The notes beneath the pieces are model-generated. The model ran no database searches, was not told the DNA's origin, and worked only from the letters and a program-made list of their open reading frames with translations. A DNA stretch of 64,000 nt from Ailanthus altissimus (Eukaryota; Streptophyta; Magnoliopsida; Sapindales; Simaroubaceae): assembly GCA_946807835.1 (NCBI GenBank), contig OX327695.1, forward strand, positions 21,496,501-21,560,500, given 5' to 3'. Position numbers and translations under genes: made by a program. Shown here piece after piece: positions 7,855-60,039 of this stretch (positions are counted from its first letter, which is position 1; the number at the start of each line of letters is the position of its first letter).

Positions 7855-8152
7855 ATAGATTATCACTATTAAATCCCCTAATGCTCATCTATGTCTTATC
7901 TCCAGATTTGTATCTCACTGAACAATATGTGCAAACTCTTTTGCTATATTACTGTTTTTACGCTTCCGCCGCGTTAGAATTCGTATATGATACGTATTTA
8001 GGCAATAGACACACTTGCACATACATATACTCACGTGTATTAAGATCTCCATCAACAATAGATTATCACTATTAAATCCCCTAATGCTCATCCATGTTTT
8101 ATCTCCAGACTTGTATCTCACTGAACATTATGTGCAAACTCTTTTGCTATAT
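7771..8152. repeat. Tandem duplication of about 180-200 bp across the nested-LTR junction
   Basis: The block beginning ACTGTTTTTACGCTTCC at 7771 recurs at 7951 in the same orientation. Each copy contains the last about 85 bp of the inner (reversed) LTR, one ATAGA duplication and about 90 bp of the outer LTR. The second copy keeps about 23 bp (from GCGTTAGAATTC) that the first lacks, and that extra text is present in the related LTR. The first copy is therefore the deleted one. Confidence 0.85.
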
Positions 8153-9017
8153 TGTTCCACTCTGTTGGAACTCTTTCCCGAGATGATTGCTTATGGCCAC
8201 AAGACTTTCTGAGATACAATCTCGAAGCATCTGAATATCTAACTCTATATGGGAGCTGACGGATCCTATATCTGTACACGCCAGACTTCATAAGCATTGG
8301 ACCATACCAAACAGCACCTAACGGTCACACCATGAAAGGTCTGTGACATGCGTGGAACCAAAGTATGGTGGATCACTTATAAGCCCACCGTGGCACTCAG
8401 GTCAAAGGACCACGTATACTACTCAACTTAAGAAGACCCTCTATTGACGGCTTACATTAGGGTGTCTATTAGGGGCCCTCATGAGTCTGTCCTATATACA
8501 GTCCTAACTGGATACCCATATGTCAATACGAGCTCCAAGCTCACAGATAGCTAAGAACGACCATTTATACCCTATAGGTACGATATATGCTGATATATAG
8601 AGAAAAGTATCCACCGACAGACCCGTATCGATAAAAATAGACCATGGACAATTATTCGTGAATATACTTATGCAACTAGCATTTTCTGGCACTCGATTGC
8701 AACTCTTTTAACTATGCAGTTACTAGTATATTCCCAGGTCTATGTCTCATTACAGAAAAAGTTCTAACTCTTGGATCTGTTGAGTATTATAACCAGTTAA
8801 CACTTAACTGTGCTAACATTTAGCATTTATATTTCTCAGCGTGGCTTACTTTGAGCCCTTATCTAAACTCCTTTAGATCTGATTTGAACTCCTTCACATC
8901 GTACAATATTTGTAATGTTATATATATAGTACCATATAAATGGGTATTAGCAATTTAATGGGAATGTTCACTTGTATATGTACATTCAGGGATGGCACGT
9001 AAGCACCGACCCTAACA

Positions 9018-19566: not shown

Positions 19567-20871
19567 ATGGCAAGCTTTCGCATCATCTCAAGCAGTACAG
19601 TCTATGCAGCAGCAAATCACAAGGAACCAAAGCTCAAGATTGACTTAACCCCATGGGATCTTCAGCTTCTCCAAGTGGATTACATCCAGAAAGGACTTCT
19701 CTTCCACAAACCTCCAGTCCAGGACAACTTCATCCACCACCTTAAGACCTCCCTTTCGCGTACGCTGGACTTTTTTCCCCCACTTGTTGGTCGCCTAGCT
19801 GTCACTGAACACGAGGATAACTCAATCTCCTTCTTTATCAACTGCAACAATGATGGAGCCGAGTTTGTTCATGCTGCTGCAGAAGGAGTTTCTGTTGCTG
19901 ATATCACTGAACCTCTTTATGTTCCTAAAATTGTTTACTCCTTTTTCCCACTCGATGGAATTAGGAACTATGAGGGTACCTCTAAGCCATTGCTTTCAGT
20001 GCAAGTGACTGAGCTTGTAGATGGCATCTTCATTGCTTGCTCCATAAATCATTCAGTTGTTGATGGCTCGTCTTTTTGGCATTTCTTCAATTCTTGGTCT
20101 GAAATCTCCCAAGGTTTTGATTCTATATCCAAACTTCCTGTTCTTCAACGTTGGTTTCTTCATGATTCTGATTGCCCCACTCACATTCCTCCATTGAAGC
20201 AACTCTCCTATACGTTTACTCCACCACCTTTGCAACAAAGATTTTTTCACTTTACAAAGGAAAACATTGGGAAACTCAAAGCCAAAGCCAGTGATGAAAC
20301 TGGCAACAACAAAATCTCCTCCCTTCAAGCACTCTTATCTCATATTTGGCGATCTGCTATTCGTAATAAATCTCTTGATTCTAATGAAGAAATCAAATAC
20401 CTACTCCTAATAGGTACTCGGCCAAGATTGCAGCCACCTCTGCCGCAAGAATATTTTGGAAATGCAGTTCAAACTGGGACTGTGACAATGAAAGCAAAAG
20501 ACCAACTTGAGGAAGGGTTAGGTTATGTGGCATTGCAAATGAACAAGATGATTGCTATGTACACAGAAGAAAAGATAAGGAACTTCTTAGAGTCCTGGAG
20601 AGAAAGCCCTCGTCTGCTAACAATGGAAGGCATGATAAGGAATAGTTTCACTACAGGCAGTTCGCCGAGATTCAATGTTTATGGTAATGATTTTGGGTGG
20701 GGAAAACCTATTACTGTAAGAAGTGGTCCAGGTAATAAGTTTGATGGGAAGATTACTGTATTCTCTGGCGTGGAACAAGGAAGTATTGACATTGAAGCTT
20801 GTCTTTTGCCCGAGACATTACAGGCTATGGGAAATGATGCTGAGTTCATGGATGCTGTCAGCAATATTTAG
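19567..20871 (+). CDS. BAHD (HXXXD-type) acyltransferase, At3g50280-like
   Basis: An uninterrupted 434-residue frame without introns. The catalytic HSVVD motif lies at residues 162-166 and the structural DFGWG motif at 375-379. Length fits the family (about 430-460). The start MASFRIISSSTVYAA and the early KIDLTPWDLQLL are typical of the plant 'uncharacterized acetyltransferase At3g50280' branch. BAHD enzymes are cytosolic and move an acyl group from acyl-CoA to an alcohol or amine of specialised metabolites; His162 would be the general base. The substrate cannot be told. There is no signal peptide or membrane segment. It is the only intact host gene in the window. A pseudogene paralogue is at 58711-60039, and its upstream block is duplicated twice more. 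The 'acetyltransferase' label in databases is by homology only. Confidence 0.95.
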   Translation: MASFRIISSSTVYAAANHKEPKLKIDLTPWDLQLLQVDYIQKGLLFHKPPVQDNFIHHLKTSLSRTLDFFPPLVGRLAVTEHEDNSISFFINCNNDGAEFVHAAAEGVSVADITEPLYVPKIVYSFFPLDGIRNYEGTSKPLLSVQVTELVDGIFIACSINHSVVDGSSFWHFFNSWSEISQGFDSISKLPVLQRWFLHDSDCPTHIPPLKQLSYTFTPPPLQQRFFHFTKENIGKLKAKASDETGNNKISSLQALLSHIWRSAIRNKSLDSNEEIKYLLLIGTRPRLQPPLPQEYFGNAVQTGTVTMKAKDQLEEGLGYVALQMNKMIAMYTEEKIRNFLESWRESPRLLTMEGMIRNSFTTGSSPRFNVYGNDFGWGKPITVRSGPGNKFDGKITVFSGVEQGSIDIEACLLPETLQAMGNDAEFMDAVSNI

Positions 20872-36370: not shown

Positions 36371-37196
36371 TTAAAAGTCTGAAATGCCTTCTTAATTTTG
36401 AAAAGGTAATAAAATAACAATTTAATCCTTGCACAAAAAAAAAACACAAATTCACGTGCAAATAAAAAGCTATTGATTAGTACTTAGTGTACTTATGAAA
36501 ACTGACTTTAATAAATAAATATAATAAAATTTACCAAAATGCCTTTATTATCATGGTCTTTTTTTACACGGTACTATATAGTATTTTAACAATAGTTTAA
36601 GTATGTGTTTAATATTGAGAGGTGTATTTTATACATGAATTTCTGCTACATATAAGTGACTATAAAAGGCTGTTTAGAAAAGTTGTGAATGTGCCATATT
36701 GCAGTTGTTACTATTGCAAAAGCAACAGTAAAAAGTTTTTGCTATAAAAAGCTACACGTGGCCATTTTATTTTGTACTTGTAACTTTCAAATTCGTCATA
36801 CAACTCTAAAATTTGTTTATAACCCAACCTCACTCCTTCTCTTCTTTAATAACCCCATAACACTCCTCTCATTCTTCAACAACCTCACAAGGCACAATTA
36901 TTTTCTTCATGTCAATATCTATAAATGTGAGTGAGGTTAATGGCAAAATTATCAAATTTAGAAACAAAACTTGTTTGTGTGGAAGGAAGGCAGGTGTGAA
37001 GATATTAGAGTAAGAAAATAATCCCTATACATTATACTTCTATTGTGAAGGAAGAAAATGCAACTATTATAGATTTTGGGAACCTATGGAAGAAGATTTA
37101 AACATTTGGATGCAAAGTGTAGATTCAAAAATGAGTTCTTTGGTAGAAGTTATGCAAAGTGTAGATGGAGAAGTTTCCAGGTTAACTATCGGTTAT

Positions 37197-38635
37197 TGAC
37201 ACGTCCAGAATATAGAAGTTATTCCCAAGTGCAGGATTGTCGAAGTAATAAATAACCCGATGAGAACGGGGTCGATCCACAGGGAAGTAGAATTAAAATT
37301 ACAAATTATAAACACTTTAAAGATAATTAATGTAGTATAAGATGTTTGTAAATATTATTTCAATTAATCAATTCAAATAAAAAGCTAAGATTACGGAGAT
37401 TCACTCTTGGCATAAGAAGTAAGAATATATTTAACTTTTTATTTTTTTTATAACTCAATTGGAATCCTCACACAAAGGAGGTTCCAACCGAAAAATATAG
37501 CAATTAAAGTTCATTATCATTTATATATTGATTAGTATTTATTTCTTTCAATTATTATACACCAAAACTTATAAATGGGTTCAAGTATTTATTATGCCAA
37601 TCTTTATATTTGTCTACAATAAATCAAGACTCCCACTTTACAAGAAATGTTATATAAACTAAATCTTGTAAATGGTTTCAAGAATTTATTGTGCCAAGTA
37701 TTAAGTTTGTCAATAATAAATCAAGAATCACCACTTTAGAAGAAAGGGTATTAATTTTACAAACAAAATAAATACATCGTATATAAATTTGCATAACTTA
37801 AAAATGAAGCATTAAATTCATGAATAAATATTAAACATATTTTATTACCTTGCCAAGAGCTTCACCCTTTCACCTTAGCTTAAACAAAATTATTTGGACA
37901 TAATAAAACTAAATGAAAAGAAAAGAAATGGAAGAAGAAATAACATGACTTAATAGTAAACAAGAGAAATAATAGTACAAGGAAATGGATACAAAGGAAA
38001 AGTATTTTGAACTAAATTCTAACTTTCTAATTACATTCCTTAGGCATAAACAAGCCACCTATTTATAGAAAAACATGGATAAATCGAGACAAATTTGGAG
38101 GGAACCACTTGGTTGATGAAAGTCAAGAATTGTGGCAAAATAATTTGCATTCATTATCACTTGGGCACCCACTTGATTATCCAATTTGGAATTGATGTGA
38201 TCCGAATTAGCTGTCACTCAAAACATAAAAGTTGTAGATAAGTCTCTTATATTTCCAAATTGAGTGATCTCATACCTATTAGATACGTATTTCTATAGTT
38301 ATGGGCCAAATACTGATAACTGTTCAAACTAGGCCTGTACTGCAAATCAATTCTGTTCTAGGCCAATTTTCACCCTCTAAACACTCGAATTTCCAATGCT
38401 TTGTGAAATACAATATGTTAGCCCATTGAGTCAGCTCTATACAAGATCAAGAATCACCTCAATTGAGTCTTTAGGTAGAAAGTTATGCCCATTTTACCGA
38501 ACCTGCTACAAAACAGTTATACGATAATTAAGTACAATATTGTAAACATACTTAAGTTAAGAAAATTAAATACACTAGTAATACAAAACAATAATGTAAA
38601 ACTCTTTTTAAATGTGTAATTTCAAGTGTTCATCA
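37197..38635 (-). repeat. 3' LTR of the Athila-like element
   Basis: It begins TGACACGTCCAGAATATAG on the plus strand and ends AAGTGTTCATCA. It is the same length as the other LTR and about 98-99% identical by eye. On the minus strand it is the downstream (3') LTR. Confidence 0.95.
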
Positions 38636-38646
38636 CACCCCCCAAC
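38636..38646 (-). other. Polypurine tract of the Athila-like element
   Basis: CACCCCCCAAC on the plus strand is GTTGGGGGGTG on the minus strand, directly upstream of the 3' LTR in element sense. This is the expected plus-strand primer position. Confidence 0.85.
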
Positions 38647-40066
38647 TGGCTTATTGCTAGTCCCTAGCAATTCGAGCATAAATAAAATTTGAACACTACC
38701 TAAGTATTTCAAACAAAACGTCAGTTTTAAAATCACAATCGCTATAAAGGTTATTTCAATCATAACTTCCAAAAATATTTTTGTGTGTGTGTGAATTAAG
38801 CCAAAGCCTTCTTACCACAAACCACAACATATATAGCCTTAAAAATGTTCCAAGTAAAAGCCTCAACTCCATATCCTTACAGGTGAATAACTTGTTTAAT
38901 GACTTAGGATTTCACTCATGGAGTTGGAAAACAGATAATCGCTCAAGAAAAAGTTACATTTAAGGACAGACAGACAAACTTACATTGATCCAAAGATAGA
39001 AAAATCAAATATTTAGAGTCAAACCATTATTGTCAAATGCCAGCTTCAAGACTTTAATTATTTAATGCGAATCTTACGAATATAGAATTCAGTGATAAGA
39101 TTGCTTCCTAATGACTTTAGTCTTCTAAAATTGAATGAAGACTTTATTGAACTGAATTGACTTCTTTTTTTTTTAATTTTTTTTTTACTCTTTTTTTTAA
39201 AGACATAAGAAATCATTACAACATAAGAGCAATTTATCACCATAATACTTTTTCAATTTTGTTTTTTTTTATCCTTCAGCTAAGCAACCAAATTATTCAT
39301 CATCCCAAATAATGTCATTCCAAATAAAAATTAACCATTTCAAAGGATCAATGAAAGTTCGTAAGCTGTTATCTCAAACCTCTCCACTCACTCACAAAAG
39401 ATATGTGAGTTTAGAAAATAATATGTATACTTAAACATGGAAATTCTCTTGGCTATATATATTGAATCATCCATCTTACCACAAGGCTTAGTATTGTTGT
39501 CAAGAAATAATTTCAAAAGTTATTCTTTAGTACCCTAAATAGAGAAAGTGATTTAAACTAAACAATTTTGAAATCATACATCGATAGTAAAGCAAATTTA
39601 TTTACGCAAGAGTTACCAAAAACTTAAGCAACAAACAATTATACATAAAATGCATTAAAAATAAACCAATTAGAATGTGTTTCAAAAGTTTATAATGTAC
39701 TCTTTACTCTGCCATTCTAGAACTAGAATGCGTCTCAAGAATACATAAATGAACATTTTACTCACGCCATTCATGATAATTTTTTTTTTTTACATAACAA
39801 AGTGATAACAACAACAAAATAAAATAATTAACACTAACATTATATATCAACTATCCTCCCCCCAACCAGATTGAGACATTGTCCTCAATGTCAAAATATA
39901 GAAAGAGTAAAATATAGAAGATATCACCTGAAACATCTTTTATTGAAAATTAAACCTGCAACAAAATAAAACAAGCCACACAAAAAAAAAAATAAAACAA
40001 GCCACAAAAAAAAAAATAAAACAAGTCACACAAAAAAAAGCTTAAAAATACATAGAAATAGATAGG
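38647..40066 (-). other. Non-coding 3' region of the Athila-like element
   Basis: It lies between the LOG-like gene and the polypurine tract. No frame of note. It has long T/A runs and includes an A-rich tandem repeat (39962-40040) and a G/T-poor stretch. Long non-coding 3' regions are usual in Athila-type elements. Confidence 0.6.
39962..40040. repeat. Three tandem units of about 27 bp, A-rich
   Basis: The unit AAAACAAG(C/T)CACA followed by an A run and T occurs three times in a row just past the stop of the LOG-like gene. In element sense it is T-rich. Confidence 0.7.
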
Positions 40067-40720
40067 CTACAGACGAAGCGTCAAATCTATCCTGCGTTTC
40101 TTTTCACTGTTATCAGTATACCAATCTATCTGACTCATTGTTGGATCAGATAGAGGTGTAAAAGCTTGTAATTCATCGAGTAACTGATCAACAGTTGAAG
40201 TAGAAATGAGGATCTGTCGTGCTGCAGATAAGACGAATTGTTTTTCCACCGCATAGTCAAGAAAGATAACAACCCATTATAAAAACCATCAACGTTTAAC
40301 AAACCAATGAGTTTTTTTATGGATTTACAATTGTGCCCATGAGACAATTTGAAAAATTTCCTCTAATGTTCCGAAACCTCCAGGTAGAGCTATGAAGGCA
40401 TCAGCATTACGAAGCATAAAAGAAATTCGTTCATGCATTGATGATACCTGTAACTCATCCCCAATTATTTTTTCTACAATGTCTCCAACAGCGAGAGCTT
40501 TTGGTATGATACCCAAAACTTGACTGCCATTATTTTGTGCAGCGGTTGCCACACGTCCCATTAATCCAAGACTACCTCCTCCATATACTAAATGAATATT
40601 GCGCTCAGCTAACATCTTACCAAGGGTTTCTGCTGCTTCTATAAACTCACTAGTTTTTCCAGGGCTGGATCCACAAAAGACACAAATTTTTGTAAATTTA
40701 CGAGTTGATGATCCTTCCAT
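40067..40720 (-). pseudogene. LOG-like: LOG-like cytokinin riboside 5'-monophosphate phosphoribohydrolase carried by the retroelement
   Basis: The frame starts at an ATG at 40720 (MEGSSTRKFTK) and is open for 131 codons. It shows ICVFCGSSPGK, VYGGGSLGLMG (46-55), GIIPKAL, MHER (95-98) and the family signature PGGFGTLEE (113-121). LOG enzymes release active cytokinin bases from their riboside monophosphates in one step, in the cytosol. After WAQL comes a stop (40325-40327). The rest of a LOG (IHKK, IGLLNVDGFYNGLLSF, EKQFVLSAARQILIST) is still legible to 40067 but needs two more frame changes, one at an A7 run. LOGs are about 210-220 residues; the full trace here is similar. Plant LOG genes have several introns; none are seen here, suggesting capture of an mRNA. 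After MHER the usual KAxM text reads ISFM, an odd change. The sense is the same as gag-pol. Confidence 0.9.
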
Positions 40721-41077
40721 GATTACACTCACCCTCTCTCTTGAATGATTTTGAGTTTGTACAAAGATGCAGAAATAATGCAATGTATTTATAGAGCCAA
40801 AAGGTATTGCAAAGTTAAATCACATGGCTATTGGCTTGAAATATAAGATTCAACACCTTTTACCAATTTTCAATTTGTTAGCTGAAAAAGTCACATGGGT
40901 TGTCGGCTTAAAATGCAAAATTTTCAAAAAGAATTATAGGTGGTTGATTATTGAAAAGATATTTGAGTTTGAAATGAAACATTTAAAAATAACAGCTATA
41001 GTAAATATATACAAGTAGTTGTGATTGTGGCTCACATCTTCCTCTGATTTTACGTCCAGTAACGGCTTAAACGCCCT

Positions 41078-41626
41078 CTATGGGTCGGGGATAGGCTTCC
41101 CATCCAATTTTCTTATAAATTGGCAAACAGGGTCTTTTAAAGTCAGATTCCCGAGACTGTACCGCTCATATTCTTTTAGGAATATGTGCCATAATTCATG
41201 AATTGCAATATGCACATATCTACTAGGATGCGTCTCAAGAGTCGATAAGATATTATCTAAAGACTCCTTACTCAGGCCATCCTTAATGAACTTAATTTTA
41301 TCTTCACGATTTACAGACACCATTCCTAAAGTGCGGCAACGTGTGTTGCAAGTCGTGCGTGCACACTTGTAACAAACATTTAATCGTTTTGATCTTCGTT
41401 TTTTTGAAAAAGAGCTTTTACCTAAGCCAGGCATGTAGGAAATTAATGAGTCTGAAAATTCACCTGTCAATCTAACTTTGGCTTCAATTAACCAACGTAA
41501 ATCAACAGGTATATTCATAATCATTAATAACCTTAATCTTTCACATCTTGCTTGGTAAATTTTCTTCAAGGAATTTTGAGGCAATGAGGGAAAACGGTTT
41601 TTCAAATTTTTTAGAATGTCATCCAT
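41078..41626 (-). CDS. Unknown 182-residue ORF of the retroelement, basic and cysteine-rich with HELWH
   Basis: I do not recognise this protein. It is open from MDDILKNLKNRF to DGKPIPDP, starts 216 bp after the pol stop and precedes the LOG-like gene in the same sense. Visible features: an N-terminal helical, charged part (1-50); a basic run KKRRSKR (75-81) that could be a nuclear or RNA-binding signal; cysteines 85, 88, 93 and 97, a compact possible zinc site; and HELWH at 143-147, which fits the HExxH pattern of zinc peptidases but could be chance. No signal peptide or membrane span is evident, so it does not look like the env-like ORF3 of Athila elements. Basic-plus-cysteine layouts occur in small nucleic-acid-binding proteins of some plant viruses, but that is only an outline resemblance. 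It is undamaged, unlike gag-pol and LOG. Confidence 0.75.
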   Translation of the reverse strand: MDDILKNLKNRFPSLPQNSLKKIYQARCERLRLLMIMNIPVDLRWLIEAKVRLTGEFSDSLISYMPGLGKSSFSKKRRSKRLNVCYKCARTTCNTRCRTLGMVSVNREDKIKFIKDGLSKESLDNILSTLETHPSRYVHIAIHELWHIFLKEYERYSLGNLTLKDPVCQFIRKLDGKPIPDP

Positions 41627-41841
41627 TTTTTTTTTTTTAAGAAAAGGGGGAAGAAGAGAAGATATCAGTAATTATGGGAAACTGACAAAACCGATTTGAA
41701 ATATCACGGAGTACCGTTATCCGCCGCTTAACCGGGGTGCAAAACAAAACTTTAACAAAACTACTAAATTAACCTGCAAGTAAAAAAAAATGTTAGAAGA
41801 AGAATAAATATATATAAATATGTAAATATATAAAACAAAGA

Positions 41842-44800
41842 TTAATTGGTCTCGTAACAAGGATCCGACAGGAACGTAAATTCTTCATGAAAAGCTTGGT
41901 TTTCTAGAAACGGCTTGAGTCTTTGCCCATTTACCTTAAACACATTCCCATTTCTAGGATTTTCAATGTCAATTGTTCCATAAGGGTACACATGTTTCAC
42001 AATAAAAGGGCCACTCCATCTTGATCTTAATTTTCCAGGGAATATGTGAAGTCGAGAATTATAAAGAAAAACCTTCTGACCAGTGTCAAATGTTTTTCTC
42101 TGAATTTTTTTATCATGAAAGGCTTTAATTTTAGCTTTATGAATTTTTGAATTCTCATATGCATCATTTCTCAATTCTTCAAGTTCATTTATTTGTAATT
42201 TACGTATGTGTTCAGCAGAATCAAGATTTTCATTAAAAGTTTTAATAGCCCAGTAGCCTTTATGCTCAAGTTCCACAGGTAAGTGACAAGGTTTTTCATA
42301 AACTATCCTATAGGGAGACATACCCAATGAAGTTTTAAAAGCAGTTCTATAAGCCCACAGTGCATCAATTAGTCTTAAAGACCAATCTTTGCGATTTGGG
42401 TTTACAGTTTTTTCTAAAATTTGTTTTATCTCCCTATTTGCTAATTCAACTTGTCCACTTGTCTGAGGATGATAAGGGGTGGCAACTTTATGAGTAATAC
42501 CATATTTTTTCACTAATGTTTCAAATGGTCTATTACAAAAATGCTTACCCCCATCACTTATAATGGCTCGAGGGATTCCAAATCGACTTAAGATATTTTC
42601 TTTCAAAAATTTCATGACTGTTTTATGGTCATTATGTCGACATGGAATAGCCTCAATCCATTTTGAGACATAATCTACTGCAACTAAGATATACGTAAAT
42701 CCAAATGATAACGGAAATGGTCCCATGAAATCTATCCCCCAACAATCAAAGATTTCAATAACAAGAATGGGGTTCAAAGGCATCATGTTTCGTTTTGAAA
42801 TTGATCCCAACTTTTGACAATTTTCACAAGTTATACAAAATGCATGTGTATCTTTAAATAAAGTGGGCCAATAAAATCCACACTGCAAGATTTTTGCAGT
42901 TGTTTTCTTTGATGAGAAATGTCCCACACATGCTTCAGAATGACAAAATTCAATAACTTTATTTACCTCATTGTCGGGTATGCATCTTCGAAATATTTGA
43001 TCACGACAATATTTAAAGAGATAAGGATCATCCCAATAAAACTTTCTCACCTCCGTTAAAAATTTTCTTTTGTCTTGAGCATTCCATTGAGGTGGCATTT
43101 CTCCTGTTACAAGAAAATTAACAATATTAGCATACCAGGGCATTGTAACAGTAGAAAATAAAAATTCATCGGGAAAAGAATCATTAATAGGTGTTATTTC
43201 TGTTGATGAATCTGGTGTGAGTCTTGATAAGTGATCTGCAACAACATTCTCAGCTCTCTTCTTATCCTTGATAGTGATAATAAATTTTTGTAGCAATAGA
43301 ATCCATCGAATTAGCCTTGGTTTTGCATCCTGTTTTGACATTAAGTACCTTACAGCAGCATGGTCAGTAAATACAATAGTTGAAGAACCAATTAAGTAAG
43401 AACGAAATTTGTCTAATGCAAATATTACAGCAAGTAATTCTTTTTCAGTTGTTGTGTAATTCATTTGTGCACTGTTTAAAGTTCTACTTGCGTAATAAAT
43501 TACATAAGATTTACCTTCCTTTCTTTGTCCTAATACAGCACCAACAGCGTAGTCACTAGCATCACACATGAGCTTAAAAGGTAAAGACCAGTCAGGAGAT
43601 TGTATGATAAGAGCAGATGTTAAGAGGCCAATTAATTTTTCAAACGAATTTTGACACTCTTGAGTCCACTTAAATGATACATCTTTTGCTAAGAGGTTAC
43701 AAAGAGGTTTAGATATAGCACTAAAGTTTTTTATGAACCTCCTATAGAATCCAGCATGTCCTAAAAAGGATCGGACTTCTCTGACTGTTTTTGGTGGAGG
43801 CAAATGTGTAATGAGTTCGACTTTTGCCTTATCCACTTCAATTCCTTTAGAAGATACTATATGTCCCAAAATAATTCCAGAAGTAACCATGTAGTGACAT
43901 TTTTCCCAGTTCAATACAAGACTCTTTTCTTCACATCTTTTTAAGACCTTTTCTAAGTTTTCAAGACAATTATCAAAAGAATTTCCAAACACAGTTAAAT
44001 CATCCATGAAAACTTCTAAATAATGCTCAATCATGTCACTAAAAATGCTTAACATACATCTCTGAAATGTTGCTGGGGCATTACAAAGTCCAAAGGGTAT
44101 TCTTCTAAAAGCAAAGGTTCCAAAAGGACATGTGAATGTAGTCTTTTCTTGGTCCTCTAATGCTATAGGAATTTGATAATAGCCAGAGTAACCATCTAGA
44201 AAGCAATAGTAGGGATGTCCTACTACTCTTTCTATAATCTGATCAAGGAATGGTAAAGGAAAATGGTCTTTTCTAGTGGCCAAGTTCAATTTTCTATAAT
44301 CTATGCACATCCTCCAACTAGATGAGACTCGAGTTGGTATTAACTCACCTTTTTCATTTTCAATGACTGTGATTCCAAATTGTTTTGGTACTACCTGAGT
44401 AGGACTTACCCACTTACTATCTGAGATCGGATAGATGATTCATACTTCAAGTAATTTGAGAACTTCAGCTCTCACTACCTCTTTCATATGTGGATTTAAT
44501 CTTCTTTGAGGTTGTTGGGAAGTTTTGGCATTATCCTCTAGGTGTATTCTATGTGTGCAAATCAAAGGATTAATACCATTTATGTCTTTTAAAGTCCACC
44601 CAATTGCATTTTTATGCATTTTCAATAATTCAATCAACTTATCTTCTTGTTCACTTGTGAGTGTAGAAGCGATTACCACCGGGTAAGTTTGTTTCTCTCC
44701 AAGAAATGCATATTTCAGTCCTTCAGGCAGAGGTTTTAACTCCAACTTTGATTTTCGTTCTTTTTATCCTCATTTTCTCCCAATTCTTCAAACTTTAGTT

Positions 44801-45065: not shown

Positions 45066-47273
45066 TCAATTCCTGCAATTAATCAAAGCGTTAGAAGTTG
45101 CTAAAAATGGACGACCTAAAATAACAGGTATCGGATTACATCCTTTGACAGGTTCTGTGTCCAAGACGATAAAATCCACAGGATATATGAATTTATCAAC
45201 TTGAACTAAGACATCCTCCACTGTCCCTCTTGGTACTTTTATTGATCTATCAGCAAGTAAAAGAGTTACAGATGTTGATTTTAACTCCCCGAGATTGAGC
45301 TGCTGATAAACTGAATACGGCAATAAATTCACACTAGCACCAAGATCAAGTAAGGCTTGTTCAATTTTATGACTTCCAATAATACATGAAATTTTAGGAC
45401 AACCAGGGTCTTTATATTTCAAAGAATTATTGTTCTGAAGAATGGCACTTACTTGTTCAGCTAAAAATGCTTTCTTTTTCACATTCAGTTTTCTTTTTAC
45501 TGTGCATAAGTCTTTCAAAAATTTTGCATAAGATGGAACCTGTTTAATAGCATCCAGTAAAGGAATATTAACTTTTACCTGTTTGAAGATTTCAAAAATT
45601 TCAGGATTGTGATTCATCTTCTTAGTATTACGTAATGCATGAGGAAATGGGGGTGGAGGTGAAGGTTTGGTGTTTTCTTCATTAAGTGTAGGTTCAACAC
45701 TTTCCTTGCCCTTAGAGATTGATTCATCGCTCTCATGAGGTTCAGGAATTTCTTTTTCAACAATTTTACCACTCCGAAGAGTGATAACTGCTTTAACTTG
45801 ATCCATGTGTTGGCTTCCTGAACTACATGCATTTGAGTTATGTTGTCCTTTGGGGTTTGGCTGTGGTTGAGAAGGAAATTTTCCTTTCTCATGAATGTTC
45901 AGTGCAGATGCAAATTTAGCAAGAGTATCTTTCAAATCAGCAAATGTTTGAGCATTTTGAGAATTAACAGACTCTTGTTTTTCAATGAATGTATGCAAGG
46001 TTTCTTCAAGATTTTTCCTAGGAGGTGGGACATATGGTGCATAACCTTGATGATTTTGAAAGTTTTGGTGTGGTTGGAAAGGTGGTTGCGAAGCCTGTGC
46101 TTGAGTGTCATTCCTCCAACTAAAATTCGGGTGATTTCGCCATCCAGGATTATAGTTTTGTGAATATGGGTTATTGTTTGACCGTTTGAACGTGTTTAAA
46201 ACATTGGCTTGTTCATGGAGACATTCCCTAAATGCAGGCAAAGTTGGGCAATCATTGGTAGGGTGATCATGGGTTTCACAAATGTGACACACAATTTCTT
46301 GAACAGATTTTATTTGACCACTCTTTTTCATTTCTAAGGTTTCGACTTTTCTAGCAAGGGATGCTAATTTGGCTTGAAGGTCATGGTCTTCCTTAAGATG
46401 ATAAATACCCCCACTAGATGTAGTGGTTTGATTTTTGCTAGGTGCCTCACAGGTACCAGCAGTGTCCCAATTTTGAGCATTTTCTGCTAGTAAGTCAAGA
46501 TAGTTCATTGCCTCTTCTGGGTCTTTTTCCTCAAATGTTCCATTACACATCATTTCTACCATTTGCCTAATTTGGGGTGTTAAGCCCTCATAGAAATTTG
46601 AGACTACTCTCCATGTTTCAAAACCATGATGGGGACAGGTATTCAGTAATTCTTTATACCTTTCCCAACATTGGTAAAGGGTCTCTCCTGGTTTTTGGGC
46701 AAAAGTGGTGATTTGTCTTTTGAAAGAATTTGTTCTATGGGAGGGAAAAAACTTTTTCAGGAATTGTTGTTGCATCTCATCCCATAAAGAAATGGATCCT
46801 GGCCTAAGGTTTTGTAGCCATGATTTAGCTTTATCTTTTAAAGAAAAAGGGAAAAGCTTAAGTCGAATTGTGTTCATGCTACAATTTTGATCATTATACG
46901 TGTTACACACTTCTTCAAATTCTCTTAGATGTAGATAAGGGTTCTCTGCATCTAAGCCATGAAAAGTGGGTAAAAGTTGGATAATGCCTGGCTTAAAATT
47001 AAAATTCGTTGCATCCGGTGGAAAAATTAAGCAAGATGGTGCACCGGTTCGTGTAGGGTTCATATAGTCTCTAAGTGTCCTAGGTCGGTTATGGTCATTA
47101 TGTTGGGACTGATTGTCCCCTGGGTCTATGAGGCCCTCAATTTGATTTTCGCTCATGGTGTTACTTGGTAAAGAATGAGAAGATGAAGGAGAATCTAACA
47201 AATTATCAAAGGAAGTTTTGAAATTACCTTTTACTAAACGATGAGAATTAGGATCTCGAAACCAACCGCTCAT
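45066..47273 (-). CDS. gag-protease of the Athila-like element
   Basis: The reading frame is open for 735 codons from MSGWFRDPNSHRL, which I prefer to an upstream ATG because the extra codons are a translated AT-rich leader. The capsid part has RTLRDYMNPTRTGAPSC, LLPTFHGLDAENPYLHLREF, LFPFSLKDKAKSWLQNL and WERYKELLNTCPHHGF. A CX2CX4HX4C zinc knuckle (CHICETHDHPTNDC) follows. The protease has ALLDLGASVNLLPYSVY, with the catalytic Asp in LDLGAS. The frame ends at NCRN-TGA (45066-45068), where relatives continue with a Gly codon, so a GGA-to-TGA change probably separates it from pol. The capsid forms the particle and the protease processes it. The frame up to the stop is undamaged. Confidence 0.9.
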   Translation of the reverse strand: MSGWFRDPNSHRLVKGNFKTSFDNLLDSPSSSHSLPSNTMSENQIEGLIDPGDNQSQHNDHNRPRTLRDYMNPTRTGAPSCLIFPPDATNFNFKPGIIQLLPTFHGLDAENPYLHLREFEEVCNTYNDQNCSMNTIRLKLFPFSLKDKAKSWLQNLRPGSISLWDEMQQQFLKKFFPSHRTNSFKRQITTFAQKPGETLYQCWERYKELLNTCPHHGFETWRVVSNFYEGLTPQIRQMVEMMCNGTFEEKDPEEAMNYLDLLAENAQNWDTAGTCEAPSKNQTTTSSGGIYHLKEDHDLQAKLASLARKVETLEMKKSGQIKSVQEIVCHICETHDHPTNDCPTLPAFRECLHEQANVLNTFKRSNNNPYSQNYNPGWRNHPNFSWRNDTQAQASQPPFQPHQNFQNHQGYAPYVPPPRKNLEETLHTFIEKQESVNSQNAQTFADLKDTLAKFASALNIHEKGKFPSQPQPNPKGQHNSNACSSGSQHMDQVKAVITLRSGKIVEKEIPEPHESDESISKGKESVEPTLNEENTKPSPPPPFPHALRNTKKMNHNPEIFEIFKQVKVNIPLLDAIKQVPSYAKFLKDLCTVKRKLNVKKKAFLAEQVSAILQNNNSLKYKDPGCPKISCIIGSHKIEQALLDLGASVNLLPYSVYQQLNLGELKSTSVTLLLADRSIKVPRGTVEDVLVQVDKFIYPVDFIVLDTEPVKGCNPIPVILGRPFLATSNALINCRN

Positions 47274-47787
47274 AAAAAGAAACAAAACAAAATACAATAA
47301 TAATACAAATAAAATATTAAACACAGGTAAATAAAATAAAATATTAAACACAAGTAAATAAAATATATAAAACTAAAAGCAAAATAAAGATAAATAATTA
47401 GGAGTTAGATTAGTGATGTTAGATTATATAATAAAAAGTTAATAAATAAATAGTATGAGGCTTAGCCTTTCATTAAAATAAAAAGCGAAAATAAAAGGCG
47501 AATAATAAATAAATTAAAGTACGTTAGGAGGCTCGGCCTTCCATGAAAATTAAAAAAAAAAAACTAAAATAAAAAGTAAAAAATAATAAATAAACGAAAT
47601 AAAGAGTAGGAGGCTCAGCCTTCCGCGAAAATAAAAATAGAATAATAATAAAGTACGTTAGGAGGCTCGGCCTTCCATGAAAATAAAAAAATAAAAAACG
47701 AATAATAAATAACGAGTAGGAGGCTCAGCCTTCCATGAAAATAAAATAAACAAACAAACAATAACAAAACAAAATATTAACGTTACC
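47274..47787 (-). other. Leader (5' UTR) of the Athila-like element with hairpin repeats
   Basis: Between the primer site and gag. Five imperfect copies of TAGGAGGCTC(G/A)GCCTTCC followed by ATGAAAATAAA occur near 47456, 47526, 47607, 47659 and 47717, separated by A-rich spacers. In element sense each reads GGAAGGCCGAGCCTCC, which can fold into a stem of six G/C-rich pairs with one bulge. Confidence 0.75.
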
Positions 47788-47805
47788 TCCCCGGCAACGG
47801 CGCCA
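47788..47805 (-). other. Primer-binding site, tRNA-Asp type
   Basis: On the minus strand TGGCGCCGTTGCCGGGGA begins six bases after the 5' LTR. It is complementary to the 3' end of plant tRNA-Asp, the primer known for Athila-type elements. It confirms element orientation. Confidence 0.9.
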
Positions 47806-47811
47806 AAAACT

Positions 47812-49250
47812 TGACACGTCCAGAATATAGAAGTTATTCCCAAGTGCAGGATTGTCGAAGTAATAAATAACCCGATGAGAACGGGGTCGATCCACAGGGA
47901 AGTAGAATTAAAATTACAAATTATAAACACTTTAAAGATAATTAATGTAGTATAAGATGTTTGTAAATATTATTTCAATTAACCAATTCAAATAAAAAGC
48001 TAAGATTACGGGGATTCACTCTTGGCATAAGAAGTAAGAATATATTTAACTTTTTATTTTTTTTATAACTCAATTGGAATCCTCACACAAAGGAGGTTCC
48101 AACCGGAAAATATAGCAATTAAAGTTCATTATCATTTATATATTGATTAGTATTTATTTCTTTCAATTATTATACACCAAATCTTATAAATGGGTTCAAG
48201 TATTTATTATGCCAATCTTTATATTTGTCTACAATAAATCAAGACTCCCACTTTACAAGAAATGTTATATAAACCAAATCTTGTAAATGGTTTCAAGAAT
48301 TTATTGTGCCAAGTATTAAGTTTGTCAATAATAAATCAAGAATCACCACTTTAGAAGAAAGGGTATTAATTTTACAAACAAAATAAATACATCATATATA
48401 AATTTGCATAACTTAAAAATGAAGCATTAAATTCATGAATAAATATTAAACATATTTTATTACCTTGTCAAGAGCTTCACCCTTTCACCTTAGCTTAAAC
48501 AAAATTATTTGGACATAATAAAACTAAATGAAAAGAAAAGAAATGGAAGAAGAAATAACATGACTTAATAGTAAACAAGAGAAATAATAGTACAAGGAAA
48601 TGGATACAAAGGAAAAGTATTTTGAACTAAATTCTAACTTTCTAATTACATTCCTTAGGCATAAACAAGCCACCTATTTATAGAAAAACATGGATAAATC
48701 GAGACAAATTTGGAGGGAACCACTTGGTTGATGAAAGTCAAGAATTGTGGCAAAATAATTTGCATTCATTATCACTTGGGCACCCACTTGATTATCCAAT
48801 TTGGAATTGATGTGATCCGAATTATCTGTCACTCAAAACATAAAAGTTTTAGATAAGTCTCTTATCTTTCCAAATTGAGTGATCTCATACGTATTAGATA
48901 CGTATTTCTATAGTTATGGGCCAAATACTGATAACTGTTCAAACTAGGCCTGTACTGCAAATCAATTCTGTTCTAGGCCAATTTTCACCCTTTAAACACT
49001 CGAATTTCCAATGCTTTTTGAAATACAATATGTTAGCCCATTGAGTCAGCTCTGCACAGGATCAAGAATCACCTCAATTAAATCTTTAGGTAGAAAGTTA
49101 TGCCCATTTTACCGAACCTGCTACAAAACAGTTATATGATAATTAAGTACAATATTGTAAACATACTTAAGTTAAGAAAATTAAATACACTAGTAATACA
49201 AAACAATCATGTAAAACTCTTTTTAAATGTGTAATTTCAAGTGTTCATCA
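47812..49250 (-). repeat. 5' LTR of the Athila-like element
   Basis: Same ends and length as 37197-38635. By eye, differences include GGAGATT/GGGGATT, ACCGAAA/ACCGGAA and TCTATACAAGA/TCTGCACAGGA, about 20 in all. The target duplication GTTAT follows at 49251-49255. Confidence 0.95.
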
Positions 49251-49372
49251 GTTATGTAGAAATTTGGAAAAAAGTTGATGAACTAAAGAAACTAATGCGT
49301 ATTTTTTTTCTTATTTTGGTGGGTGTAATGTTGTCATATGTATGGGAAAAAAAAAATGAAATGGCTACATGA

Positions 49373-58710: not shown

Positions 58711-60039
58711 ATGGCAAGCTCTCGGATCATCTCAAGCAGTACAGTCTATGCAGCAGCAAATGACAAGGAACCAAGTCTTAAGATTGACTTAACCCCATGG
58801 GATCTTCAGCTCCTCCAAGTTGATTACATCCAGAAAGGACTTCTCTTCCACAAACCTCCAGTACAGAACACCTTCATCCACCACCTTAAGACCTCCCTTT
58901 CGCGTACGCCGGACTTTTTTCCCCCCACTTGCTGGTCGCTTAGCCATCACCGAACATGAGGATAACTCAATCTCCTTCATTATCAATTGCAACAATGATG
59001 GAGCCGAGTTTGTTCATGCTGCTGCAGAAGGAGTTTTTGTTGCTGATATAATTGAACCTATATACGTTCCTGATGTTGTTTATTCTTTCTTCCCGCTAAA
59101 TGGGATTAGGAACCATGAGGGTACCTCAAAGCCATTGCTTGCAGTGCAAGTGACTGAGCTGGCTGATGGCATTTTTATCGGTTGCACCATAAACCATACA
59201 GTTGTTGATGGCTCATCATTTTGGCATTTCTTCAATTCTTGGTCTGAAATCTCAAGAGGTTTAGTTTTGCTATCTAATCCTCCTGTTCTTCGTCGTTGGT
59301 TTCTTCATGATACTGATTGTCCCATTCACATACCTTACTTGAGCAGCAAACAACTTTATAGTAGTTTCATTCCACCACAGTTGCAACAAAGAGTTTTCAT
59401 TTTACAAAGGAAAACATAGGAAAACTCAAAGCAAAAGCCAATGCTGAGATTGGCACCAACAAATCTCATCCCTTCAAGCACTCTTATCCCATCTCTGGCG
59501 ATCAGTTATTCGCAGTAAATGTCTTGATCCCGATCAAGAGATTTATTATCGGCTACTAATAGGTGTCAGACCAAGATTGAACCCACCATTATCCCCACAT
59601 TATTTTGGAAATGAAGTTCAAGCTGGAAGCATAAGAATGAAAGCCAAAGATGTAATTGAGCAGGGACTTGGCTATGTGGCATGGCAAATGAACAAAATGG
59701 TTGCTGTGCACACAGAAGAAAAGTTAAAGAACTTCTTGGAGTCCTGGAGAGAAAACCCTCAACTACTAACAATGGACAGCATGGTAACAAATGCTTTGGT
59801 CGCAAGTAGCTCTCCGAGGTTTAATGTCTACGGTAATGATTTTGGGTGGGGAAAACCTATTGCTGTAAGAAGTGGTCCGGGGAACAAATCTGACGGGAAG
59901 GTAAACTCTGTTTCCTGGAGTACAAGAAGGAAGTGTTGACATTGAAGCCTGCTTTTCGCCCGATACATTGCAAGGCATTGGACATGATACTGAATTTGTG
60001 GATGCTGCCACCACACACCATGAATTCTCAATGTCATAA
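58711..60039 (+). pseudogene. BAHD acyltransferase pseudogene, paralogue of 19567-20871
   Basis: It starts MASSRIISSSTVYAA and stays close to the intact paralogue along its length, ending IEACFSP.. and TEFVDA. Four single-base indels break the frame. One is an extra C in a C6 run at 58921-58926 (C5 in the paralogue). Two are losses, near 59391 and near 59462. The fourth is an extra base near 59910-59930. The HXXXD motif (HTVVD, codons at 59194-59208) and DFGWG (near 59838) are still legible. The last residues differ and a TAA closes at 60037-60039. Because the lesions are single-base and some lie in homopolymers, a sequence error cannot be excluded, but four in one gene favours a pseudogene. 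Confidence 0.85.

Follow-up and report, generated by a model that had tools for sequence, protein, structure and literature searches.

In the Ailanthus genome, a family of Ty3/gypsy retrotransposons carries a LOG-like gene as a regular accessory gene. Comparison of protein sequences shows, moreover, that the element-type LOG forms one clade present in several eudicots, which is separate from the sampled host LOGs and has conserved features of its own. The starting point was one copy of this element in a stretch of 64,000 nucleotides, which as a whole is called the window in the following. The explanation that we consider best combines anatomy, history and mechanism, and as a whole we give it a probability of about 0.5. 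Anatomy and history are very probably correct. The mechanistic part, in which a repurposed nuclear nucleotide hydrolase would engage host co-repressors, is our favoured reading and a tentative one, rather unlikely to hold.

The LOG-bearing LTR element lies on the minus strand of the window and shows the hallmarks of Ty3/gypsy elements: a pair of LTRs, a target site duplication, a primer binding site, a polypurine tract, gag and the order protease, reverse transcriptase (RT), RNase H and integrase.

37192-37196, no strand: target site duplication GTTAT, left side; the identical 5-mer stands outside both LTRs
37197-38635, minus strand: 3' LTR (TG...CA), 1439 bp
38636-38646, minus strand: polypurine tract GTTGGGGGGTG (element sense), adjoining the 3' LTR; direct reading
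41842-44310, minus strand: pol with RT, RNase H and integrase; Pfam
44440-44745, minus strand: upstream piece of pol in the frame of the main pol, separated from it by a stop codon; frame coordinates
45066-47351, minus strand: gag and protease; Pfam Retrotrans_gag (1e-20) and Asp_protease_2 (1e-5)
47788-47805, minus strand: primer binding site TGGCGCCGTTGCCGGGGA, after the 5' LTR; direct reading
47812-49250, minus strand: 5' LTR, 1439 bp
49251-49255, no strand: target site duplication GTTAT, right side, the same 5-mer as on the left

Thus, the LTRs, target duplications, primer site and polypurine tract that an earlier, sequence-only reading had described could all be located, with an LTR pair of 1439 bp and GTTAT on both sides. 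The two LTRs differ at 20 positions in a gapless alignment (K2P 0.0140); at a substitution rate of 1.3e-8 per site per year, this divergence corresponds to an insertion age of about half a million years. The primer binding site TGGCGCCGTTGCCGGGGA is presumably of the tRNA-Asp type. Between the primer site and gag, at 47418-47768, tandem units of ~58 bp with AGGAGGCTCAGCCTTCC were observed. The pol of the window copy is interrupted by the stop codon between the upstream piece and the main frame, and in the main frame the Pfam match to RT begins at profile position 16. In this 822-aa frame the Pfam scan detected no domains beyond RT, one RNase H region and integrase; neither a chromodomain nor a second RNase H was found, an absence that counts as a weak sign. 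An archaeal-type second RNase H is a mark of Tat, and the absence of both domains would weakly place the element in the OTA/Athila clade. Elsewhere in the window, an intact 434-aa frame at 19567-20871 (plus strand), which from its motifs looks like a BAHD acyltransferase, has a broken relative ~38 kb away at 58820-59939 (plus strand).

After pol, the gene order is integrase, then a frame of 182 aa (41078-41626), then the LOG-like frame (40067-40720).

40067-40720, minus strand: LOG-like frame, identified by Pfam, PDB match and frames; ATG at 40720, open for 131 codons, then broken
40070-40102, minus strand: codons of the C-terminal basic and LxLxL tail (KKRRIDLTLRL), downstream of the breaks in the window copy
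40785-40794, minus strand: TATA-like CTATAAATAC, ~65 bp before the LOG ATG; direct reading, candidate internal promoter
41078-41626, minus strand: 182-aa frame; match to Viral_NABP, PF05515 (E 7e-7; 29.9 bits, cut-off 23)
41774-41804, minus strand: polypyrimidine tract ending TTGCAG/GT, putative splice acceptor before the NABP frame; direct reading

The LOG-type motifs that had been named before are all present on the minus strand from the ATG at 40720, and the frame was confirmed to be intronless and in gag-pol sense. The claim that it lies between integrase and the 3' LTR is correct as to position, but integrase is not directly adjacent to the LOG frame, as the 182-aa frame, which that reading did not mention, intervenes. 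The LOG homology of the window copy was upheld, but the frame is not intact: a stop follows codon 131 (...SWAQL, then stop), and the remaining homology is split over two frames. Over the 131 translated residues, matches were obtained to Lysine_decarbox (PF03641, E 4e-22), to SLOG cluster4 (PF18306) and, among structures, to AtLOG3 (PDB 2a33, E 6e-40). Regarding expression, the exact 10-mer CTATAAATAC occurs in 18 of the 20 loci fetched from the host genome (each whole 5.6-kb locus was searched), and the LOG protein could possibly be made from a TATA-box transcript of its own.

Copies of the element were searched in the host genome (37 scaffolds, 939,062,666 bp), and the 20 best after the window's own, out of at least 39 others, were fetched. 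In all 20 the order integrase, NABP, LOG, 3' LTR was the same. The LOG gene therefore recurs at one place within the element, as had been proposed for element cargo. A one-off insertion of LOG is ruled out by this recurrence at the same site in 20 of 20 fetched copies. It had also been supposed that other copies might be intact, and this is the case for six of the 20, in which the LOG frame is full-length (217-218 codons); it is broken in the other 14 and in the window copy. A protein search with a 217-residue LOG query gave 6112 first-look candidates, of which the 150 best-scoring were scored. Within these best 150, every match spans at least query residues 9-216, and by hand count the matched stretch is free of stops in 118 and contains stops in 32. 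It is important to add that a stop-free match is not equal to an intact frame, as one fetched copy (L020) is free of stops in the matched stretch and has a stop at codon 4, and that the copy counts are lower bounds biased towards good copies. One identical score is common to 30 of the best 150 scored copies, as expected if the copies stem from an intact source element. When a Xanthoceras query was used to look for a second element family in Ailanthus, the 150 matches scored looked like the same family.

To describe relatives, the LOG protein of an intact fetched copy (L027) was used as a query. At least 7934 matches at E <= 1e-10 were obtained among 7997 candidates scored, and the 120 listed include Xanthoceras, Populus, Reevesia (29 of the 120), Paulownia and Diplodiscus. 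Outside Ailanthus, 'element-type' refers to sequence kinship; the element context was seen directly only in Xanthoceras, in a chimeric LOG protein that includes a piece of gag with 24 of 35 residues identical to the gag of the Ailanthus element. In a tree of 45 rows, the 25 element-type LOGs form one clade (support 98/94), host LOGs together with AtLOG8 and a conifer protein form a separate one (99/97), and both together stand apart from two bacterial LOGs (99/94). The tree that had been suggested as a check thus separates element-type LOGs from the sampled host LOGs, where the host rows comprise LOG1/3/4-type proteins and AtLOG8 only and the host control set comes from species other than Ailanthus. 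In a tree of 27 rows the host rows stay together (98/96), and placing the element clade with AtLOG8 (p-AU 0.18) or with the LOG1/3 group (p-AU 0.17) is rejected in neither case.

A bacterial origin or contamination is ruled out, as the tree groups the protein with plant LOGs and the scaffold is a plant chromosome. Because relatives from several eudicots form one clade, the capture of LOG looks old by sequence comparison. As the protein is of plant type and the gene is intronless, the proposed capture via a LOG mRNA is a reasonable, putative route. In the history that we prefer, an Athila-like lineage would have captured a plant LOG on a single occasion and via an intronless intermediate, having acquired its virus-type nucleic-acid-binding gene either before or after this event. 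As separate observations, three Populus proteins annotated as LOGL10 (P0139, P0169, P0214) have the element-type tail and are without the host Lys/Glu pair described below; here the names of host hormone genes may have been given to genes of elements. An IMG/VR viral contig (L029, 8001-8528) carries a LOG-type gene with 41% to the element LOG, and a further scan of viral contigs gave no match.

Next to its descent, the protein can be characterized by its fold and by individual residues. The LOG fold and PF03641 with PGGxGTxxE assign it to the LOG family. The AF2 model of the intact L027 protein (mean pLDDT 83) shows the LOG fold with good confidence and has low confidence in the tail, and its best PDB match is AtLOG3 (2a33; TM-score (target) 0.94, rmsd 1.3). 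We treat the product as a LOG-fold protein and, in view of the prenyl-site residues given below, do not assume cytokinin specificity. In the case of CgLOG, Arg99 and Glu122 were proposed as catalytic residues and Met96, His97, Lys100, Glu125 and Trp129 as the prenyl site (PMC4979012). We aligned 116 element-type proteins (four of 120 were dropped for length) with 95 host LOGs. The catalytic residues R98 and E121 are present in 109 and 113 of the 116, respectively, and both in L027; like this pair, the phosphate-loop Thr is kept in more than 90% of element-type LOGs. The prenyl site shows a different picture, with Trp in 116/116, Met in 94/116, His in 49/116 and Lys and Glu in only 4/116 each; the five positions of L027 read M, H, I, Q, W. 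Lys and Glu are found together in the same four proteins, are both replaced in the other 112 and are never lost singly, and both are present in 95 of 95 host LOGs. Two of the four keepers are named Xanthoceras. A cruder count, which includes the long proteins dropped from the alignment, finds the Lys in 7 of 98 readable proteins out of 120. In the 27-row tree the loss of the pair is one change, and it falls after the branching of P0198, P0172, P0122 and P0157 seen in the 45-row tree. As a whole, 61 of the 119 columns that are invariant in host LOGs are unchanged in element-type LOGs and 22 have changed, in one case to a missing residue.

These residues bear directly on the proposal that the element raises cytokinin in its own favour. 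According to this alternative, LOG would be a working cargo that makes active cytokinin and thereby favours dividing, meristem-like cells that pass the element on. The preserved fold, catalytic Arg and Glu, PGGxGTLEE and prenyl-site Trp are in line with it, as are the many copies without a stop in the matched stretch (118 of the best 150) and the four members, two named Xanthoceras, that retain the host-like Lys and Glu. However, the Lys, which contacts both adenine and the prenyl group, and the Glu, which contacts the prenyl group, are replaced in 112 of 116 proteins and in L027 while being fixed in all 95 hosts. Alanine mutants of the AMP-site and catalytic residues of CgLOG were nearly inactive except S19A (PMC4979012; the mutants are not listed there individually), which also speaks against this alternative, and the nuclear, EAR-like tail would be left unexplained by it. 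Because two proposed prenyl-binding residues changed together in the element's clade, cytokinin production by the element LOG is doubtful; the earlier proposal is weakened, and we consider such a cargo unlikely. In our preferred reading, by comparison, the element LOG would still cleave nucleoside 5'-monophosphate, since the catalytic Arg and Glu, the phosphate loop and the fold are kept, and the changed base/prenyl pocket suggests another substrate or a low cytokinin activity.

A further feature of the element-type LOGs is their C-terminal tail. Of 120 element-type LOGs, 101 have a basic run with an LxLxL ending, as against none of 120 host LOGs (the best 120 listed in each case). LxLxL at the end or one residue before it is found in 103/120 versus 0/120, and anywhere in the sequence it occurs in 6 of the 120 host LOGs. 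This contrast is somewhat flattered, as the order of the element-type set reflects similarity to a query with the tail, which favours tail-bearing matches, and the host set, retrieved with an AtLOG3 stretch ending before the tail, includes some odd extended ends. Of the 120 listed element-type proteins, 106 have 213-219 residues, and 101 of these 106 end exactly in LxLxL. To describe conservation, 23 representatives less than 80% identical were taken from 113 proteins of 205-220 residues. Their mean majority was 0.747 for the last 11 columns, 0.391 for the six preceding columns and 0.745 for the whole protein. The LxLxL end is present in 19 of the 23, the exceptions being P0124, P0172, P0198 and P0239, which include a Xanthoceras protein.

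At the sequence level, the tail carries the LxLxL pattern of the EAR repressor motif, and we infer that it may combine a nuclear signal with an EAR motif. In the preferred mechanism, the KKRK-LDLTLxL tail would lead to nuclear entry and, as an EAR motif, to binding of TOPLESS-type co-repressors, which would disturb host transcriptional repression wherever the element is expressed. A precedent for such recruitment is the downy mildew effector HaRxL21, in which a C-terminal EAR motif can recruit TOPLESS; a results heading of the same source reads 'An EAR motif is not sufficient to mediate interaction with TPL' (PMC7446885). A C-terminal LxLxL in a LOG tail can thus also be unrelated to TOPLESS. 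The tail could also be the only reason for keeping the gene, so that LOG would be a regulatory decoy without enzyme function, with no role other than to hold the nuclear, EAR-like tail. This would agree with a tail conserved to the protein average next to a linker that is not, and with the changed substrate pocket, but a pure scaffold has no need of the catalytic pair and phosphate-loop Thr kept in more than 90% of members, and we regard the decoy as quite improbable.

The second extra gene of the element is the 182-aa frame. Its match to PF05515 is confined to residues 39-125, and the frame shows a CxxCx(4)CxxxC cluster following a basic stretch; no Pfam family reaches the gathering score over the remainder of its conserved C-terminal half. 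There are 490 relatives at E <= 0.01, the 120 listed including Xanthoceras, Acer, Populus and Rhamnella; of 19 relatives, 16 match PF05515 and 16 match PF01623, in each case at E <= 0.01. The AF2 model of the frame is poor (pLDDT 54). One NABP relative and one LOG relative each have a longest contig of 8723 bases, and these are perhaps the same contig. A scan of genome contigs for NABP gave the retroelement contig described below and a weak match to the NABP family (32% over 72 residues, E 5e-5) at 8001-8225 of a Flavobacteriaceae MAG chromosome (L061), and a tblastn search of an NABP relative in phages gave no match.

The arrangement of both genes can be compared with that in a contig of 3330 bp (DAIEQH010000041.1, here L060) that is filed in a Candidatus Nomurabacteria MAG, has the content of a plant retroelement and is probably a contaminant. 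It encodes an integrase and an intact NABP relative, and in three forward frames no LOG was seen. Its alignment with the window defines the following features.

39858-39933, minus strand: right flank of the LOG cassette, TTGAGGACAATG...GGTTGGGGGG; aligns with L060 2533-2608 (75% identity, E 2e-7)
39934-41003, minus strand: LOG cassette, 1070 bp versus 111 bp in L060; L060 2421 aligns with 41004 and L060 2533 with 39933

Because only 111 bp of L060 stand between the aligned flanks that are 1070 bp apart in the window, LOG is an optional module among related elements. The right edge of the cassette is uncertain by ~90 bp and may lie nearer to 40024, since a T-rich stretch at 39985-40024 also aligns weakly (L060 2459-2495, E 1e-4). 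Just past the LOG stop, near the 3' edge of the cassette, three tandem units of 24-26 bp were observed at 39963-40039. Further downstream, the stretch 39722-39775 resembles by eye a part of the NABP frame, 41228-41296 (ATGCGTCTCAAGA...CTCA.GCCAT), and L060 2185-2203, within the L060 NABP frame, matches this stretch at 18 of 19 bases; it is possibly a duplicated NABP fragment. Regarding selection, dN/dS between the NABP frames of copy L027 and L060 is 0.205 (dS 0.79), which indicates purifying selection on NABP, and dN/dS of the integrase between the window and L060 is 0.118 (dS 1.40, 200 codons). In our reading the NABP-like protein would bind small RNA or the RNA of the element and so counter silencing. 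Taken together with the tail, this could amount to a eudicot Ty3/gypsy lineage with a module of two genes for handling the host, a silencing-blunting NABP and a nuclear, TOPLESS-recruiting LOG hydrolase, a speculative picture that we consider unlikely on the present sequences. If true, the element would act on host silencing and transcription in the manner of a set of pathogen effectors.

Within the Ailanthus family, variants were counted in 48 rows (51 less three duplicates), with 30 of the loci chosen for high score. For LOG, nonsynonymous and synonymous variants numbered 11/6 (shared) and 42/20 (single) at an opportunity of 1821/672; for NABP, the numbers were 17/11 and 48/16 at 1538/539. 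In this young family both show little constraint, and the counts carry little information on selection. Selection on LOG therefore rests on the conservation of frame and residues between species and not on DNA: frame, tail and pocket are preserved between element-type LOGs that are 61-74% identical. An alternative is that the captured LOG is a passenger, carried by an otherwise successful element without benefit to it. Such a passenger would account for the frames broken in 14 of 20 fetched copies and in the window copy, for variant counts without clear constraint within the family and for the related element L060 without LOG at the same site. On the other hand, relatives 61-74% identical have kept a frame of 213-219 aa (106 of the 120 listed), the tail and 22 consistently changed positions, where drifting frames would have broken, and the identical score of 30 of the best 150 scored copies is as from an intact source copy. 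A mere passenger thus appears improbable to us. Finally, it is very improbable that the element-type LOGs belong to a normal host LOG subfamily that is amplified by retroelements or situated near them, despite the public annotation of some Populus members as LOGL10 and the fact that just one LOG outside Ailanthus was tied to element sequence here, since in Ailanthus all 20 fetched copies have the gene at the same internal site, between integrase and NABP on one side and the LTR on the other, Reevesia accounts for 29 of the 120 matches listed, a Xanthoceras member is fused with gag, and consensus sequences of Citrus and Populus elements contain the domain (PMC9289625). For Ailanthus, the same-site recurrence in 20/20 fetched copies contradicts such a subfamily.

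Compared with known systems, LOG cargo as such is already known, since Gypsy consensus sequences from two Citrus species, and from Populus trichocarpa with a filter off, were reported to contain a YgdH domain, in agreement with Steinbauerova et al. 2011 (PMC9289625, 2022). The sequence-only reading had called it an unusual case of a hormone gene as retroelement cargo, a claim that this earlier print overtakes. Like these Citrus and Populus elements, the Ailanthus element is a Gypsy-type element of a rosid with an internal LOG (YgdH) domain; the passages on the domain in that source give its presence only and have no tail, pocket change, tree of host and element proteins, NABP or Ailanthus family. 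In the open-licence literature, which was queried without naming tail or pocket, no report of the tail, the paired pocket change, the separate clade, the NABP partner or the LOG-less relative was found.

Plant LOGs such as AtLOG3 (2a33) and AtLOG8 (1ydh) share the fold, PGGxGTLEE and the catalytic Arg and Glu with the element LOG, which is 54-55% identical to AtLOG3 over the structure match. The element LOG differs in 22 of 119 host-invariant positions, in the loss of the Lys/Glu pair, in its tail and in having no introns. Some annotated cytokinin LOGs, e.g. Populus 'LOGL10', are similar to element genes, and cytokinin may not be their product. With HaRxL21, the element LOG shares an LxLxL at the C-terminus (PMC7446885); HaRxL21 binds TOPLESS, whereas here there is a sequence resemblance only and the carrier is an element-encoded LOG. 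With the carlavirus-type families Viral_NABP (PF05515) and Carla_C4 (PF01623), the 182-aa frame has in common a basic stretch followed by a Cys cluster, and its score is above the PF05515 cut-off; it differs in sitting in a retroelement and in matching over residues 39-125 only.

The element can also be compared to Athila/OTA elements. It resembles them in having no chromodomain, a primer site presumed to be of the tRNA-Asp type, a 5-bp duplication and extra sense frames between pol and the 3' LTR (PMC6317226). In contrast to the env-like frames there, the extra frames here are LOG and NABP, both of which are below the minimum of 250 codons for extra frames in that survey, where the function of frames after pol is called 'rather speculative' (PMC6317226). 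In the Ailanthus element, both extra frames belong to known families with relatives conserved across species, and they yield predictions for single proteins: a change of substrate, a nuclear TOPLESS-binding tail and suppression of silencing.
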